Assembly (NCBI GenBank): GCA_019749835.1
Contig: JAIEPJ010000047.1
Location: 1 to 50,969 of the forward strand
DNA: 50,969 nt
From: Phreatobacter sp.
Lineage (GTDB): Bacteria; Pseudomonadota; Alphaproteobacteria; Rhizobiales; Phreatobacteraceae
Reading direction: 5' to 3'
Shown: positions 34,335 to 50,969 of the stretch, one piece after another
Layout of the letters: every line of letters starts with the position of its first letter
Numbering within the stretch: the first letter of the stretch is position 1
Notes under the pieces: generated by a model
The model's input: the letters and a program-made list of their open reading frames with translations, nothing else
Database searches by the model: none
Told to the model about the DNA's origin: nothing
Program-made: the position numbers and the translations under genes

Positions 34335-34643
34335 TCAGGGGTGGATAACGCTCACTTCGCGGCCGACATGGTTGCGCAGGGTCGGGTCGGTGGTCCCGTG
34401 ATCGCGGCTCGGCAAAACAGGCATGATCGATAAGGAAAGCCGTGTCTGGCCGAGGACAATGGCGGCGAGGCGCTGGCCCGCCGCGAGCGTGGCATTGACG
34501 CAGCGGCCCTCGCGCGTGCGTCCTTCGGGACAAACACTCTGGGCCTGCGCGGACGAGGCGGCGGGCGCGGCAAGCAGGCCGATTGTCGCCAAGGTGACCA
34601 GGCGGGCTCGGATCGGCCGTGACCGGAAGGCGGAGGGGTTCAT
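34335..34643 (-). CDS. Small secreted protein downstream of the barrel gene
   Basis: 102 residues from ATG at 34643 with AAGGA eight bases before it, only 17 bases after the barrel gene's stop, so the two form one unit under the MarR-type operator at 35.98 kb. A Sec signal peptide (IRARLVTLATIGLLAAPAAS, cleaved near AQA-QS) precedes a short mature chain with two cysteines (VCPEGRTREGRCVNATL). The rest reads AAGQRLAAIVLGQTRLSLSI and ends VSVIHP. The paired cysteines, short length and export signal resemble the two neighbouring secreted proteins in style but not in sequence. No family recognised; function unknown. Confidence 0.65.
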   Translation of the reverse strand: MNPSAFRSRPIRARLVTLATIGLLAAPAASSAQAQSVCPEGRTREGRCVNATLAAGQRLAAIVLGQTRLSLSIMPVLPSRDHGTTDPTLRNHVGREVSVIHP

Positions 34644-34660
34644 GAAACTGTCCTTGATGG

Positions 34661-35962
34661 TCAATAGGTGATCGTGCCGCCGAGCGACACCGTCCAGCCG
34701 GTATAGGCGAGGGCGGGAACGGCGGTGTCGGCGAAGGGCCCAAAGAAGGGATCGACGACGTCCGGGCGGCTGCGCTGCGAAACCCAGAAGTGCTCGGCGC
34801 GGAAGGTGACGGCGGCGTTCCGCGACATCTGGTAGCGAGCCGAGCCGCCGAGCGCGATTCTGGTCTTGGCCGGCGAGAAGGCGCCCGCCGCCGGGATATA
34901 GGCATTGGCGTCGCGATTGAACCAACTGGCGAACGCGCCCAGTGTCCATTGCGCATCAAGGCGGTAGTTATGGTCTAGCCGCAGCCGGATCGCTTGGCTA
35001 TTGGAATTGAACGCCTCGCGGACGGCGGCTGGGATGGTCGGATCGAGCACGAGGTTGGGCGCGGCGCGACTGAATGAACCGCTGAGCGTCGTGTTGTGGT
35101 CCGTGTTCCAAGTGTAGCCGGCGGAAGCGGTCAAAGCGATTGTATCGCCCATGCGGCTGATATAGGCGCCGTCGATCCGTGTACCTTGATTGACGATGTA
35201 CGTCGCGCCGGCCTTGAGGAGCAAGGCGCCGAGCACATGGGCGATCTGCAGCGAGCCGGAGGACGAGGCGCCCGGCTGGAAACGGTTGTCGGGGTCGCCG
35301 AAGCCGGTCACGGGGTCGCGGGTGAAGCCGCCGCGGTGCGTGTGGCTGAGACTGGCTGTTAGCAGCGTCCATTCGCCGATCGGAACGTTGACGCCCATGG
35401 TGGCGCCGAGATTGAAGCCCTCGCCGTAGTTGGGCACCTCAACCAGGTCCGGGTCCATGCGGGAGAAGGCGCGGGTGCCGGGAAGGTTGGCCGAGCCGGT
35501 CGGCAGGTTCGCGTTAAGCGATATGAAGGGCTGCCAGCCCGGCGTCGCGAGATAGGTGAAGGTACCCGAGACCACAGTGTCGGTGAGCGTCGAGACCGAG
35601 CCGGCGAGGCCGCCACCGCTGTCCTGCCGGGCATGGACCCAACCGGTGCGCGCCATCAGTTCGACCCGGTAGTCCGGGCTTGGCTGTCCAACAATCTGGA
35701 CGGCCAAGGGCGCGTAGAACTGCGAACCCCGGCCCGGGGAGCCGAGGGCATAGCCGCCAGGAAAGCCGCGGTTGCCTGACCAACTGGTAAAGCGTGCATC
35801 GAAATCGACCAGCATGGCCCAGGTCGCCTGGAAGGCCGCGGCGGCCGGCGCCGGCAGACCCGAATCGACAGCCCTGGCCTCGGCAACTGCACCGAGTAAG
35901 CCCATCGCGACGACAGGCGTCACGACCAGGCGATGCAGGCGAAACCGGACAACAGACGGCAC
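34661..35962 (-). CDS. Outer-membrane beta-barrel protein of the MarR locus
   Basis: 433 residues if started at GTG 35962, which has GGAG six bases upstream and begins right at a signal peptide (MPSVVRFRLHRLVVTPVVAM ending AEARA). ATGs at 35974 and 35992 are in frame but lie in or next to the operator and probable -10 box. The mature chain is long runs of alternating polar and hydrophobic strands, for example FQATWAMLVDFDARFTSWSG, ALLLKAGATYIVNQGTRID and the closing TGWTVSLGGTITY, as in 14- to 18-stranded transport barrels. It has no cysteines. I do not recognise a specific family. It is co-transcribed with a small secreted protein. Confidence 0.72.
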   Translation of the reverse strand: MPSVVRFRLHRLVVTPVVAMGLLGAVAEARAVDSGLPAPAAAAFQATWAMLVDFDARFTSWSGNRGFPGGYALGSPGRGSQFYAPLAVQIVGQPSPDYRVELMARTGWVHARQDSGGGLAGSVSTLTDTVVSGTFTYLATPGWQPFISLNANLPTGSANLPGTRAFSRMDPDLVEVPNYGEGFNLGATMGVNVPIGEWTLLTASLSHTHRGGFTRDPVTGFGDPDNRFQPGASSSGSLQIAHVLGALLLKAGATYIVNQGTRIDGAYISRMGDTIALTASAGYTWNTDHNTTLSGSFSRAAPNLVLDPTIPAAVREAFNSNSQAIRLRLDHNYRLDAQWTLGAFASWFNRDANAYIPAAGAFSPAKTRIALGGSARYQMSRNAAVTFRAEHFWVSQRSRPDVVDPFFGPFADTAVPALAYTGWTVSLGGTITY

Positions 35963-35975
35963 AGGACACTCCATT

Positions 35976-35994
35976 AAATGCTCACTGGTCATTT
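35976..35994. promoter_or_regulatory. MarR-locus operator copy 1 (barrel gene)
   Basis: AAATGCTCA-C-TGGTCATTT, seven of nine positions symmetric, inside a wider 7-9-7 repeat TTAAATG/CATTTAA (35974-35996). It covers the likely -10 region downstream of TTGCCA (minus strand, 36024-36019) and so would block transcription when bound. Confidence 0.65.
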
Positions 35995-36089
35995 AAGGCC
36001 AGGCGTCGGGTCACTTGGCAAGGGGTACCGACGCTTGTCTGGCCGTTGCCGGCCGACTGATGCAGCGGCGCACCAGTCGGTGGCATCGG

Positions 36090-36518
36090 TCAGCGGCGGA
36101 GGCCACCGCCCTGATCGGAGAGGATGTTGCCGCGGGCCCTGAGGCTCGCGCCGTCATTGGCGATGAGCCCCGGATTGCGGTTGCCCGGGCTGAGCAGCCC
36201 CCCACCATTGTCGGTGATCAGGCGGTTCTGGCTTGTAGGCGTCACGATTGGGCGCTGTGGCACAACGGGTTGCTGGACCCGGCCGGCAATGGTCGGCGTC
36301 GTCGCCCGCGGCGGCGGCTGCAATGTCGGACGAGGCGCCTGATATCCGGGGGCGCCGGGCATGCGGCGGGCGTTGTTGTCCCAAGGGGCGCAGCCCGACA
36401 CGAAGACGTTGACATAGCCACCGCATCCCGCGGCGGCCGCGGGGTGAATGGCAAACAGCGAGGCGGCTCCGGCGAGGGCGACCGCGATGGCGACAGAAGC
36501 TTGGGACGAGCGGGGCAT
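36090..36518 (-). CDS. Short secreted protein with CGGYVNVFVSGC module (paralogue 1)
   Basis: 142 residues. A signal peptide (SVAIAVALAGAASLFAIHPA, cleaved near AAA-G) is followed at once by the module CGGYVNVFVSGCAPWDNNAR, continuing RMPGAPGYQAPRP, which is nearly identical to the same stretch in the gene at 36564. A Pro/Thr/Gln linker follows, and then Gly/Asn-rich turns such as LITDNGGGLLSPGNRNPGLI and a final LSDQGGGLRR. The two cysteines of the module probably form a disulfide. It is the second gene of an operon with its paralogue, 45 bases apart. The Gly/Asn repeats hint at a beta-stacked or amyloid-like extracellular chain. No known family recognised. Confidence 0.7.
   Translation of the reverse strand: MPRSSQASVAIAVALAGAASLFAIHPAAAAGCGGYVNVFVSGCAPWDNNARRMPGAPGYQAPRPTLQPPPRATTPTIAGRVQQPVVPQRPIVTPTSQNRLITDNGGGLLSPGNRNPGLIANDGASLRARGNILSDQGGGLRR
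36334..36431. repeat. 98-bp direct repeat, copy 1
   Basis: Encodes the shared CGGYVNVFVSGC module. It matches 36796-36893 at 94 of 98 positions by eye, in the same orientation, 462 bases apart. Identity falls off sharply on both sides, so duplication was followed by selection or gene conversion in this block. Confidence 0.85.
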
Positions 36519-36563
36519 GGGACTTTGCTTCCTGTTGTTTGGGGAGAGGTGAGTAATGCGGCT

Positions 36564-36977
36564 TCAGCGGCGGAAGCCGCCACCCTGGTCGGAGATGAAG
36601 GTGCCGCCGGCATTGCCGACCAGGCCTGTCCGGTTGCCGGGGCTGATCAGCGTGCCGCCGGCGTTGCCGACCAGGCCCGTCCGGTTGCCAGGGCTGATGA
36701 GGCCGGTGGCGGTGGCGGGCTGGCCCACGACGCGTTGCGTCCCCGTGTAGCCGACGGTCGGCTGGCGCAGATTGTTCACCGGCGCGGCGGGGCGGGGCGC
36801 CTGATATCCGGGGGCGCCGGGCATGCGGCGGGCGTTGTTGTCCCAAGGGGCGCAGCCGGACACGAAGACATTGACGTAGCCGCCGCATCCCGCTGCGCGG
36901 GCCGGTGTCTCGGAGGCGAGGGCCGCTCCGGCGAGAACCGAGGCGATGAGGAGGGCTCGGGGTGCTGACACGCGCAT
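36564..36977 (-). CDS. Short secreted protein with CGGYVNVFVSGC module and 17-residue repeats (paralogue 2)
   Basis: 137 residues from ATG at 36977, with GGAG upstream. A signal peptide (RALLIASVLAGAALASETPA, cleaved near ARA-A) precedes the CGGYVNVFVSGCAPWDNNAR module shared with paralogue 1. The C-terminal half has two tandem copies of a 17-residue unit reading LISPGNRTGLVGNAGGT, preceded by a partial copy and followed by FISDQGGGFRR. The unit has a regular G-N-G pattern typical of turn-strand repeats. It is the first gene of its operon and is driven by a well-formed promoter whose spacer carries the operator. Function unknown; possible roles are a surface fibre, matrix protein or signal peptide, none established. 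Confidence 0.72.
   Translation of the reverse strand: MRVSAPRALLIASVLAGAALASETPARAAGCGGYVNVFVSGCAPWDNNARRMPGAPGYQAPRPAAPVNNLRQPTVGYTGTQRVVGQPATATGLISPGNRTGLVGNAGGTLISPGNRTGLVGNAGGTFISDQGGGFRR
36601..36702. repeat. Two tandem 51-bp repeats
   Basis: Units 36601-36651 and 36652-36702 differ at a handful of bases and encode the 17-residue repeat of paralogue 2. The frame is kept. Confidence 0.85.
36796..36893. repeat. 98-bp direct repeat, copy 2
   Basis: Second copy of the module-coding block described at 36334-36431. Confidence 0.85.
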
Positions 36978-37008
36978 GACGTTCTCCAGGCGACGCAAGG
37001 ACAGGCTC

Positions 37009-37037
37009 TCTATAGAATAGCTCACTGAGCAATTCAA
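37009..37037 (-). promoter_or_regulatory. Sigma70-type promoter of the secreted-protein pair
   Basis: On the minus strand TTGAAT (37037-37032), a 17-base spacer and TATAGA (37014-37009). Spacing is ideal and both boxes are close to consensus. Operator copy 2 fills the spacer. Confidence 0.72.
37016..37034. promoter_or_regulatory. MarR-locus operator copy 2 (secreted pair, near MarR gene)
   Basis: AATAGCTCA-C-TGAGCAATT, eight of nine positions symmetric, the best of the three copies. It lies between the -35 and -10 boxes of the secreted-pair promoter and 100 bases before the divergent MarR gene, so it could also act in autoregulation. Confidence 0.72.
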
Positions 37038-37134
37038 GAGTGCGAGGCATGGGTGACACCGCTTTGACGGACAGGCATTGTCGCGGCGGCAGCCGGGCCC
37101 GAGTCGCTAGGCGGCGGATTGGAACACTTCACCG

Positions 37135-37581
37135 ATGGCGCGTAAGCTGATTAGAGCCGACGCCCTGGCGCGGCTGTTCGAACAGTCGACAAGGGCCCTT
37201 CATTCCACCGGGCACAGCCATGGGCTGTTTCCGGCCCAATGGACGGCGCTGCGCTATTTCGCGGCGGCGGATCGAAGCCAGTGCACGGCCATCAGCCTGG
37301 CGCGGTTCCAGGGCATGGCCTTTGGGCCCGTTTCACGCACGGTCCGCACGCTGATCAGCAAGGGATTGCTGCGTAAGGCCGGATCGGCCGGAAGGGGCAG
37401 GGCGGAGCTTCTCGAACTGTCCGACGAGGGCTATCAGCTCCTGGCGAGCGATCCCATCCGTGCAGTGGTTCAGGTGCTGGAGGACCTTGATGATGCGCAG
37501 CGGCTGGCGCTGGCTACGGCACTGGAGCAGATCCTGCTGTCGATTCAGCCGGCGGAGCCCGGTAACGCTCTCGGGGAATAA
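37135..37581 (+). CDS. MarR-family winged-helix regulator
   Basis: 148 residues, usual for the family. Helices at both ends form the dimer interface (RADALARLFEQSTRALHSTG and the C-terminal DAQRLALATALEQILLSI). The centre is a winged helix: LFPAQWTALRYFAAAD, the recognition helix FGPVSRTVRTLISKGLLRKA, and the wing GSAGRGRAELLELSDEGYQL. It diverges from the secreted pair and converges on the receiver gene (13 bases). Three copies of a 19-bp GCTCACTG palindrome before the three flanking units are natural targets. No Cys or metal motif is visible that would identify the signal. Confidence 0.88.
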   Translation: MARKLIRADALARLFEQSTRALHSTGHSHGLFPAQWTALRYFAAADRSQCTAISLARFQGMAFGPVSRTVRTLISKGLLRKAGSAGRGRAELLELSDEGYQLLASDPIRAVVQVLEDLDDAQRLALATALEQILLSIQPAEPGNALGE

Positions 37582-37594
37582 ACGCCGCCGAACC

Positions 37595-37990
37595 TCATTG
37601 GCGGGCGACGATCGCATCGATTGCCTTCACCAGAACATCTTCATCGAAAGGTTTGACGAAAACCCGCTCGGCGCCCCAGACCTCGGCGAGAGCGCCAGCC
37701 GTTTCGATCGTCAGCCGAGGTCCGCCGCCGGTCATCGCGAGGATCGGTAGGTCCCGGTTGGTGTCGCGGATGAGCTTGATGAGTTTCAGTCCATCGATCC
37801 CCGCCATCCAGATGTCGGTCACGGCGACGGCGAATGGCCGGTTCGCGATCTCGGTCAAGGCTTCATGGCCTGAGGCGACACAGATCGGATTGTATCCGGC
37901 GCCACGGAGGGCCTCCGCAAGCGACACGCGCACCGCCTCGACATCGTCGACGACGAGGACATCAGGCTTGGGCGGCATGCTGAGCGACAT
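37595..37990 (-). CDS. Single-domain response regulator (receiver only)
   Basis: 131 residues, a receiver domain with no output domain. The acidic pair is in VLVVDDVEAVRV, the phosphate-accepting Asp in VAVTDIWMAGIDGL, the switch Thr in ILAMTGGGP and the Lys in VFVKPFDED, so phosphorylation chemistry is intact. The start overlaps the end of the histidine kinase gene by 29 bases, implying coupled translation; a second ATG four codons in is possible. It probably takes phosphate from that kinase and passes it on or acts as a sink. No DNA-binding domain, so gene control here would fall to the MarR protein or an unlinked partner. Confidence 0.88.
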   Translation of the reverse strand: MSLSMPPKPDVLVVDDVEAVRVSLAEALRGAGYNPICVASGHEALTEIANRPFAVAVTDIWMAGIDGLKLIKLIRDTNRDLPILAMTGGGPRLTIETAGALAEVWGAERVFVKPFDEDVLVKAIDAIVARQ

Positions 37991-40265
37991 GGGTCGGTTC
38001 CGTTTCTGACAGTGTCGGGCCCGGGACGGCGATGGTCACGCGCGTACCAACGCCGGATTGGGATTCAATGTCGATCGTGGCTTTCCACGCATGGATGATG
38101 CCATAGACGATGGGCAGGCCAAGACCCGTGCCCTGTCCGGGCTGTTTGGTCGTGAAGAAGGGCTCCATTGCGCGCTGGCGTGTCTCGTGGTCCATTCCCT
38201 CGCCATTGTCCTTGACAGTGAGGATAAAGCCGGCCGCCCCCGATCCCTTGAAACGGACGTCGACATGGCCCTCCCCACGCGTCGCATAGACGGCGTTGGC
38301 GACCAGATTGGCCAGTACCTGGAAGGCTTCATTGGCATCGACCATCGGGCCGGGCTCGCCGTAGTTCTCGAAACTGAGCGCGAGCTTGTCGGGCAATATG
38401 CTGCGCAAGCTGCGTATAGCCTCTCCCAGCGCCTGCCCGAGCGGAGCGTGGCTGTCGGCGCGCGGTGTCGGCCGCACACTGGTCAGAAGACCCGCGACGA
38501 TCGTTGCGGCGCGGGTTCCGGATTCGGCAACGATCTCCAGCAGGCGGCGCCGGTCGTCGCCAGCTGGAATACCGCCGGCGACGCGTCGCGACAGGTTCAC
38601 GATCGGGTGGAGGAGATTGTTGATCTCGTGGGCGACGCCGCCGGCGAGTTGGCCGATGGCCGCCATCTTGCGCTGTTGAGCGATCCGCTCTTTGGCCGCG
38701 GCCTCCGCGGTGTCGTCCGTGACGATGCCTTGCAGGCCGCCGCCCGCGCCGGAGGGGCGCGCCCTGAAGCTGACAAGCCGATGGTCTAGACCGCCTTCGG
38801 TTACCGGCAGGGTTATGCTGGCACGGAACTCGGACGTGTTCACCAGACTGTTGGCGAGTTGGTCGCGCGCACTGATCTCTCCGGACTGCTGATCCTGACC
38901 GAGGAGATCTGCGAGGTTCCGGCCCGGCGTCAGCCCGATGGCCTGCGCGGTGGGGCCCGAGGCGAAGATGACCGTACCGTTGCGGTCGCTTTCCCAGAAG
39001 CTGTCGGAGGCGCTCTCGGCGAATGCGCGCAGGCGAAGGGCCGCGTCCTCTGCGGCCCTTCGCGCCTCGCGCTCGCGGCTCTGCAGGTCGATGGCATTGG
39101 CGATGCCGGAGAGCAGCAGAGACAGGCAAGTGGCGAGATAGTTGACGTTGACCGCGATGGGGTTCGCGCCGATGGCTGGCAGGGCATCGTGCAGCATGCG
39201 GACGAGGCCGCCAGCGAACATCGGACCCCAGCAGGCGATAAAGACCAGAGTGCGGCGGCGCTCCGAGCGCCATGAAAGGACGACGAGCAACACACACAGC
39301 GCGATAGACGCGATTCCGATCGGCGCGGAAAAGCGCCTCAGCGTCGGATTGTCTGTCAATACCGATACCAAAGCCATAACGCTCAATCCCAGCATGGCGA
39401 TCGCCACGCCCCGCACGGCAGCTGCCACGCGTGGGAAATGGGTGCTGACACGCAAGAAATAGGGGCTGTAGAACAAAATCATCGCGAAAAGGAGAAAGGT
39501 GCCGCCGAACGACATGACTCGCGCGGCCACGATGCCCCCGGGCCAGAGGATGCTGCCGACGAAACCCTGATCGCCGAGGACATAAGCGAGATAGGCCAGC
39601 ACCAGACCGGAAAGCATCGCCGAGGTTGGATCGCGGGCGATGAGGGCAGCGGCGGCCAAATACATGGCCAATGCGGCGAGCATGCCGAAGACGACGCCGA
39701 ACATCAGGTTCTCGGCGCCGCTCGCACTGACGAAATCCATATCGGCGTGGAGCCAGAGCGAGGCGCGCATGGAAGACGGCGTCTGGATGCGCAGATAGAC
39801 GGTGCTATCCGCAACCTCCGTCGTCGGGACGATGAGAACTGGATAGCGGGTGGGAAAGCCCGATCCCGCCTGCGAGCGGCCGATGACCCAGCGCAACTCG
39901 CGCCAGCCCTCCGCATCTTGGATGAAGAGCGAGACGTTTCGGATGCGTGGCTCTCGGAGAGCTAGTACCCAGTCGCCGCCGGCACGTTCGGCGAGGGTGG
40001 GGATGACCACGCGTAGCCACAGAGCCGCCTCAGGGGCTGGACTTGGGCCGTAGTTTGCGGCCCTTCGCCCGTCATGCTGCTGAAATGCGACCGTCGACCC
40101 CGGCGCCGTGATGTCAGTGATCGCCAGGCGGCCCGATCGGTCAAGAAGATGGTCCGCGAGCGGGCCGATGAAGCGGACGGTAGTCTCCGCTGCAGCACGG
40201 GTCGGTCCCACAAACGCAAGCAAAATCAGGCACATGAAAAGCCGCGCGCCGTAGCACAGGCTCAC
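37962..40265 (-). CDS. 7TMR-DISM sensor histidine kinase with PAS domain
   Basis: 767 residues from GTG at 40265, chosen because a signal peptide follows ([20 protein letters not shown]). Alternatives are ATG 40235 and a TTG at 40412, which overlaps a likely -35 box. The order is a periplasmic 7TMR-DISMED2-like beta domain ([20 protein letters not shown]), seven helices (7TMR-DISM), a short coiled coil, a PAS domain ([20 protein letters not shown]), then HisKA with phospho-His in [16 protein letters not shown] near residue 546, and HATPase_c with [16 protein letters not shown] and [16 protein letters not shown] kinases are thought to sense sugars or other ligands in the periplasm. Operator copy 3 lies upstream; the receiver gene overlaps its end. 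Confidence 0.88.
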
Positions 40266-40418
40266 TCGGTAGGTCAGCAGGCCATGAACCGACCGGCGAC
40301 GACCGGCAAAGCGGGGGATGGGAATAGTCAAAGGAACGCCGATTGATCCGCAACTCGTCCCATCCGGGCGGCTGGGTTTCCCTATAGGAACATCAAAATG
40401 GCGGGTTGCCAACAGGCT

Positions 40419-40437
40419 TGAGGCTCACTGAGCATTT
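40419..40437. promoter_or_regulatory. MarR-locus operator copy 3 (kinase gene)
   Basis: Core GCTCA-C-TGAGC (40423-40433) perfectly symmetric, with the right flank ATTT as in copy 1 and a diverged left flank. It lies just upstream of a TTGGCA hexamer (minus strand, 40412-40407) that may be the kinase -35 box, a position that would also allow activation. Confidence 0.55.
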
Positions 40438-50667: not shown

Positions 50668-50969
50668 GGGCTGCGCCTCGGTCGCCTGAGCCAGGTGATG
50701 ACGGGCAAGAGCACCACGACAATCCCGTTGGCGAGCGCTGCTGCCACCCCGGCACTTTCCGAGCGGACGGAGACGAGGGCGAGAGCGCCGCAGACGACCG
50801 AGACCAGAGCGACGGTAAAAGCGACCTGCGGCGCTCTTAGGCCATTGTCGACGGCGCGCTGGTAGGCGTGGTCACGATGGGGCTCAGTGAGCCTGCGGCC
50901 TGCCAGGAAACGCCGTAAGAGGGTCAGGCCGCCATCGACGAGCGGGTAGAGCAGCACGAGGAGCGCTGC
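50664..50969 (-). CDS. WecA/WbpL-like undecaprenyl-phosphate sugar-1-phosphate transferase, C-terminal part
   Basis: About 101 residues are seen; the gene begins beyond the right edge. LLYPLVDGGLTLLRRFLAGR followed by EPHRDHAYQRAVDNGL is the cytoplasmic HxDHxYQR loop of the WbpL/WecA family, which binds the nucleotide sugar. Two helices follow and a basic end. These enzymes start glycan synthesis by moving a sugar phosphate from UDP-sugar to undecaprenyl phosphate. It is coupled with the epimerase, matching wbpV-wbpL pairs of O-antigen loci. Confidence 0.87.
   Translation of the reverse strand, partial: AALLVLLYPLVDGGLTLLRRFLAGRRLTEPHRDHAYQRAVDNGLRAPQVAFTVALVSVVCGALALVSVRSESAGVAAALANGIVVVLLPVITWLRRPRRSP

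Follow-up and report, generated by a model that had tools for sequence, protein, structure and literature searches.

The stretch of DNA analysed here (the window; 50,969 nucleotides, contig JAIEPJ010000047.1 of Phreatobacter sp. assembly GCA_019749835.1) is a single contig from a genome of 4.43 Mb, which is 85% complete, and carries a cluster of genes arranged around a MarR-family regulator, with three copies of a 19-bp palindrome among them (Table 1). A preliminary description of this DNA, made from the letters alone, had named a set consisting of an outer-membrane barrel, a small secreted protein, a duplicated pair of secreted proteins, the regulator, a lone receiver and a DISM histidine kinase, and every member of that set has been borne out, the two secreted proteins being homologous to each other. 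The pairing of regulator and palindrome with a sensor kinase recurs in related bacteria, so that, judged from sequence, it looks like a real control circuit.

Table 1. Genes and palindrome copies of the MarR locus, with window coordinates
Feature	Position	Strand	Basis or remark
Small secreted protein, last gene of the barrel operon	34335-34649	-	Homologues follow the barrel elsewhere
Predicted outer-membrane beta-barrel, about 16 strands (our own count)	34661-35974	-	AlphaFold model, pLDDT 69, pTM 0.68
Palindrome copy 1, AAATGCTCACTGGTCATTT	35976-35994	-	Weakest copy; adjoins the beta-barrel gene start
Secreted protein 2, paralogue of protein 1	36090-36518	-	Homology
Secreted protein 1, CGGYVNVFVSGCAPWDNN domain and repeats	36564-36977	-	Secretion judged by eye from the N-terminus
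Palindrome copy 2, AATAGCTCACTGAGCAATT	37016-37034	-	In a promoter-like spacer before the secreted-protein pair
MarR-family regulator, candidate DNA-binding protein	37135-37581	+	Pfam and predicted fold
Lone receiver domain, 131 aa, no output domain	37595-37990	-	Response_reg, E=9.1e-19
7TMR-DISM sensor histidine kinase	37962-40412	-	Pfam domains; true start probably downstream of 40412
Palindrome copy 3, TGAGGCTCACTGAGCATTT	40419-40437	-	Upstream of the kinase-receiver operon and a TTGGCA box

Within its own genome the form GCTCACTGAGCA is matched exactly by copies 2 and 3 only (n=2), and copy 1 differs from the core GCTCACTGAGC at two bases. A weight matrix trained on 19 sites from other genomes, with the window excluded, nevertheless returned as its top three matches in the window exactly the three copies (32.2, 25.7 and 21.4 bits, the next match reaching 9.7), copy 1 being the third, and 2 Mb of first-order Markov sequence contained no match scoring as high as copy 1 under any of three pseudocount settings, which makes copy 1 a significant match despite its two departures and upholds the three-copy palindrome originally described. 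A 12-mer allowed up to two mismatches is not enriched across the window (7 found vs. 5.1 expected from shuffles) and the exact core is not rare in the order, so the evidence lies in position, AT-rich flanks and conservation rather than in count. As to position, the early placement of copy 2 in a 17-base promoter spacer agrees with the sequence TTGAAT, 17 bp, TATAGA found around it, and that of copy 3 near a possible -35 box agrees with the TTGGCA box; copy 1, first put before the barrel unit on a -10 region, does precede that unit, its place being corrected to directly beside the likely barrel start codon at 35974. The 11-bp core GCTCASTGAGC occurs three times in the genome. The third occurrence, at 50882, lies in a reading frame with GC-rich flanks near the contig end and was treated as chance; this single further exact core is all that was found in the genome of the excess in coding DNA that would have told against the motif.

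Of the proteins in the set, the regulator alone matches a Pfam DNA-binding family (MarR_2, E=1e-5, covering the whole profile at 26.0 bits, just under the cut-off of 27). Its AlphaFold model, computed as a monomer (pLDDT 84), has helices at residues 8-24, 33-44, 52-59 and 63-75, strands at 79-85 and 90-95, and C-terminal helices, giving the winged helix-turn-helix with flanking dimerisation helices, and as modelled the protein has the MarR fold. All 50 matches shown in a Foldseek search against the PDB are of MarR type, going by title or recall, with TM-scores of 0.45-0.62 of the query; they include MepR, MarR and MexR, and there are ligand-bound structures among the matches. The putative recognition helix, GPVSRTVRTLI, is identical in nine of the 12 aligned rows, namely all those from Phreatobacter, the Pseudolabrys metagenome-assembled genome and Rhizobiales bacterium 64-17.

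Twelve MarR loci were compared, the window's included, the relatives being by alignment 47-78% identical to its MarR; at 11 of them the palindrome lies close to the genes, and a sensor kinase and a lone receiver accompany the MarR. The receiver and marR lie tail-to-tail in all ten contiguous loci, their stop codons overlapping by up to 17 or standing up to 13 bases apart; in G011 the kinase-receiver-MarR set is broken over two contigs, with a transposase-like gene (identified by eye). The receivers keep their motifs VTD[IL]WM and KPF, with the phospho-acceptor Asp and the Lys, in 11 of 11 cases, and the kinases keep HEINN and GTGLGL in 11 of 11 and D[DN]GxGM in 10 of 11, the locus L117 having a variant ATP box. 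For the window's kinase, 7TMR-DISM_7TM (PF07695, E=6.5e-17), DISMED2 (PF07696, E=4.1e-12) and HATPase_c exceed the Pfam cut-offs, and HisKA, at 22.6 bits, falls below its cut-off of 26.9. Among the 11 kinase sets, eight have a site directly before the kinase, and two (G005b and G576b) have one before a gene that we read as the head of the kinase operon. The kinase site of four Phreatobacter genomes precedes a TTGGC box and a conserved inverted repeat.

That inverted repeat, TTCC-YWWR-GGGAA, lies about 28 bp downstream of the kinase site (40378-40390 in the window, L058 6227, L067 6843; in the window and G001 it was read by eye from the printed strand) and is possibly a second operator or an RNA element.

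The order surveyed was Hyphomicrobiales. A first search found some MarR match at E<=1e-3 in 27 of 61 genomes, and an order-wide search at E<=1e-25 found one in 10 of 397: five Phreatobacter genomes, G576, G633 and three more distant ones (G476, G609 and G634). Close relatives of the window's MarR (76-80% identical) are encoded in G001, G005, G007 and G011, the first two of which also have a second copy each (58-59%). All seven MarR genes that are at least 58% identical, the window's among them, have a palindrome no more than 450 bp from the marR start, and all seven loci carry the kinase and receiver, most of them also the secreted proteins, the barrel and the small protein; the main locus of G001 is without a barrel, and its second locus runs into a contig end. 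A 41% relative (G011:C14) has no palindrome in 17 kb. A site occupies the spot matching copy 2 in G001, G005, G007 and G011, and before the barrel in Pseudolabrys; one between a secreted-protein gene and the barrel, as for copy 1, is found also in G001:C9, and there is none in that position in the main loci of G005 and G011.

Outside Phreatobacter, a scan of named genomes and MarR alignment turned up loci in Rhizobiales bacterium 64-17 and in the Pseudolabrys genome, the latter belonging to the Xanthobacteraceae; as their MarR proteins are 98.7% identical, the two count as hardly more than a single case. Each carries the genes for MarR, receiver and kinase, one site preceding the kinase and another a further outer-membrane barrel; Pseudolabrys also encodes the barrel and small protein, again preceded by a site. 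In G576, of a family other than the window's, there are two loci with kinase, receiver and MarR, the sites being AAAAGATCACTGAGCTTTT and AAATGATCACTGATCATTA at one locus and AAAAGCTCACTGAGCATTT at the second. On sequence comparison, then, the system is conserved in Phreatobacter and in at least one other family, which makes at least two families in all. The prediction that orthologous loci should keep the motif holds at 11 of the 12; at the twelfth, G633, there is likewise no kinase or receiver homologue within 17 kb of the MarR relative. More distant relatives occur in the class (44 matches at E<=1e-15, the window's included, spread over 38 of the 289 genomes), and the 14 of their 43 outside loci that were scanned, over 2.3-3.4 kb each, had no such palindrome. 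Upstream of the G633 relative lies a palindrome of its own, ATTGGAAAACTTCCAAT (L118 7932-7948), perhaps a different operator.

Counted over whole genomes, the exact core occurs 3, 6, 7, 2 and 4 times in the five MarR-bearing Phreatobacter genomes and 2, 0, 0, 0, 0, 0 and 0 times in the seven without a close MarR, a reversed control pattern occurring 0 or 1 times within the genus. On our own reading of the maps, which disregards mechanical 5' extensions, the MarR-bearing Phreatobacter genomes have 20 of their 22 cores in intergenic positions, upstream of at least one gene; the core G005:C21 falls in a reading frame and was treated as chance. Every exact core lies within the MarR locus in 64-17 (2 of 2), Pseudolabrys (3 of 3) and G007 (2 of 2). 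G576 has four cores, one of them in a MarR locus; two of the others lie in reading frames (one being Rho, by eye) and one is unclear, and these three were left out of the regulon count. Thirteen regions totalling 114 kb, which were selected round known loci and of which two have no core, hold 19 cores against 0.06 in shuffles. Since the core is commoner outside the genus, core count alone is no proof.

Sites away from the main locus extend the list of presumed targets (signal peptides and membrane helices were here judged by eye). One precedes the gene of a protein of about 380 residues that looks secreted, in G001 and also, behind a repeat-protein gene, in G005 (69% identical). Another, in G001, precedes genes in both directions, for a TonB-dependent receptor and for a TPR protein. 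In both G005 and G011 one site lies at a divergent pair of small membrane-protein genes with a Peptidase_C93 gene downstream (L072 6230-6898, L068 7812-8480), of the LapG-type family, and another precedes the gene of a 156-residue exported-looking protein, opposite a small membrane protein. As these further sites in three genomes (G001 and, with complete maps around the sites, G005 and G011) precede apparently exported or membrane proteins, the proposal of an envelope regulon fits. In nine of 22 non-kinase pairs of site and target a TTG directly abuts the 19-mer (the next commonest offset outside the site occurs four times), which would place the site on promoters, and a TATA-like sequence follows the site in several. 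These 22 rows represent 21 sites of our own choosing, many of them orthologous, with L066 counted once per side; the divergent orientations of two sites and the L062 site were left out, one of these (159 in G011) having an abutting TTG.

What the sequences give directly are the sites, their positions, their conservation and the co-occurrence of MarR, kinase and receiver. Taken together they make it probable that the MarR-family protein controls the surface-protein genes and its own kinase-receiver operon through the shared palindrome, and its occupying that palindrome at both sets of genes is well supported by comparison. We infer that the MarR protein is the binder, that it binds the 19-bp palindrome as a dimer and at promoters, that binding represses, and that an outside signal read by the kinase enters the same switch. 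So bound, it would hold down the genes for the exported and outer-membrane proteins together with the operon of its partner kinase and receiver. At several surface-protein promoters the site overlies the spacer between -35 and -10, so that repression by blocking RNA polymerase is most likely there; at the kinase promoter, where the window's site is upstream of the presumed -35 box, either repression or activation is possible. Release would come with an outside change read by the DISM kinase, or with a small molecule bound by MarR.

These last two routes correspond to different forms of the circuit. The one to which we would give an even chance makes MarR a conventional ligand-sensing repressor that regulates the two-component system without any feedback from it. 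MarR proteins commonly bind small molecules and the matched structures include ligand-bound ones, but the kinase and receiver keep company with MarR more tightly than an unrelated target needs. The strict linkage of kinase, receiver and MarR suggests instead that the phosphorylated receiver acts on MarR, as anti-repressor or co-repressor, in a single chain; that the three stand together in 11 of 12 loci and tail-to-tail wherever contiguous, that the sole locus lacking kinase and receiver in 17 kb also lacks the motif, and that the receiver has intact motifs and no output domain are all in keeping with this. The same neighbourhood would, however, be expected if kinase and receiver were mere regulated targets, and the receiver could serve a different partner, so that we hold such a chain possible at somewhat less than even chance. 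As a complete split response regulator, in which the DISM kinase would phosphorylate the output-less receiver, which would then remove MarR from the palindrome or place it there, closing a feedback loop on the surface programme and the kinase operon, the scheme is the boldest reading and on balance unlikely.

Several observations weigh against control of the palindrome by MarR in any of these forms. The core is present in 35 of 54 other genomes of the order, at one to six copies each (a set that includes G576, G633 and the three genomes with distant MarR matches), and in those three, G476, G609 and G634, the one core of each lies on a contig other than that of the MarR gene. G633 has a 52% MarR relative and no core in its genome, the kinase of G001b is without an upstream site, and the secreted repeat protein was not found at the non-Phreatobacter loci (64-17, Pseudolabrys, G576 and G633). 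Recognition helix and site do not track cleanly: the altered helices are GPTTR and GPTAR in G576 and GAVAR in the motif-less G633, and in G576 GPTTR goes with two GATCA-type sites and GPTAR with an exact core. Nor are the sites independent, since a single genus supplies most of the loci and the 22 rows include many orthologues. Two further points would favour another transcription factor, encoded elsewhere, as the binder, with MarR merely nearby: G002 has no close MarR and yet two cores, one of them scoring 25.7 bits like true sites (L074 7053-7071, G002:C12), and in 64-17 and G576 there is no site near the marR start. Such a factor is nevertheless quite improbable, for the combination of site, MarR and kinase recurs at paralogous loci and across at least two families, six of the seven Phreatobacter genomes without a close MarR have no core at all, and MarR alone in the set has a Pfam DNA-binding match. 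As for chance or a repeat artefact, the shortness of the core and its frequency of roughly one to two per genome in the order might be cited in its favour, but the ranking of the three copies by an outside-trained matrix, the empty 2-Mb null and the conserved position of the site across loci leave it virtually no likelihood and in practice refute it.

Control by the MarR-family protein has several parallels among known systems. The classical repressors of the family (MexR, MepR and MarR) share their fold with this regulator, and their operators are palindromes over promoter elements, as at the present sites; they differ in that the genes controlled here would be those for exported proteins, a barrel and a two-component system rather than for an efflux pump or a catabolic operon, and in that this regulator falls just below the Pfam MarR_2 cut-off. 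Alphaproteobacterial MrrA and PhyR-NepR offer examples of a receiver without DNA-binding output acting through another protein; the presumed partner here, by contrast, would be a MarR-type DNA-binding protein. Nearest in kind among the described cases compared is RtrC of Caulobacter crescentus, which has a MarR-like predicted fold and a pseudo-palindromic site and works downstream of a two-component set; a surface adhesin programme is among those it controls, it acts as activator or repressor according to site position, and its annotation is that of a hypothetical protein, found for the most part in Caulobacterales and Rhodospirillales (PMC9648850). The present system differs from it in its target genes and in its fixed kinase-receiver-MarR gene set, of which the passages on RtrC make no mention. 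The circuit is not a new class of regulation. In the literature searched, outside which most subscription papers fall, no description of this circuit was found, in line with the preliminary description, whose author knew of no described system with this gene set, and a search on MarR and Phreatobacter found nothing related.

To our knowledge little is known about the regulation of surface proteins in Phreatobacter and its relatives, and the locus would supply such a programme with a defined operator and a candidate regulator, along with a list of targets. The locked arrangement of kinase, receiver and MarR poses the question of whether an output-less receiver can work through a MarR protein, and the secreted repeat protein gains a first functional context.

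The two secreted proteins of the window match each other at 53-54% over their aligned part. Among 297 genomes of the order their family was found in 5, precisely those Phreatobacter genomes that have the MarR, all 17 copies lying in MarR loci or on the site-bearing G001 contig C9. No Pfam or NCBIfam model exceeded its cut-off for this pair, the barrel or the small protein. Homologues of the small protein directly follow the barrel in the main locus of G005 and in G007, G011 and Pseudolabrys. The barrel had no PDB sequence match at E<=10, and its model, which is of moderate confidence, resembles in the Foldseek matches shown barrels that include porins, FadL/TodX and COG4313 (E from 5e-10 to 3e-7, TM-scores of 0.26-0.45 relative to the query), a likeness so generic that we claim no transport substrate. 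No relative was confirmed when named genomes were scanned with the barrel by itself, by a method that needs exact short peptides and in genomes where relatives do exist. A distant barrel relative (31%) in G007 and G006, at loci without the MarR site (L119 8625-12684, L120 5598-9974), precedes a secreted-looking protein of about 800 residues, which in L119 is rich in cysteine.

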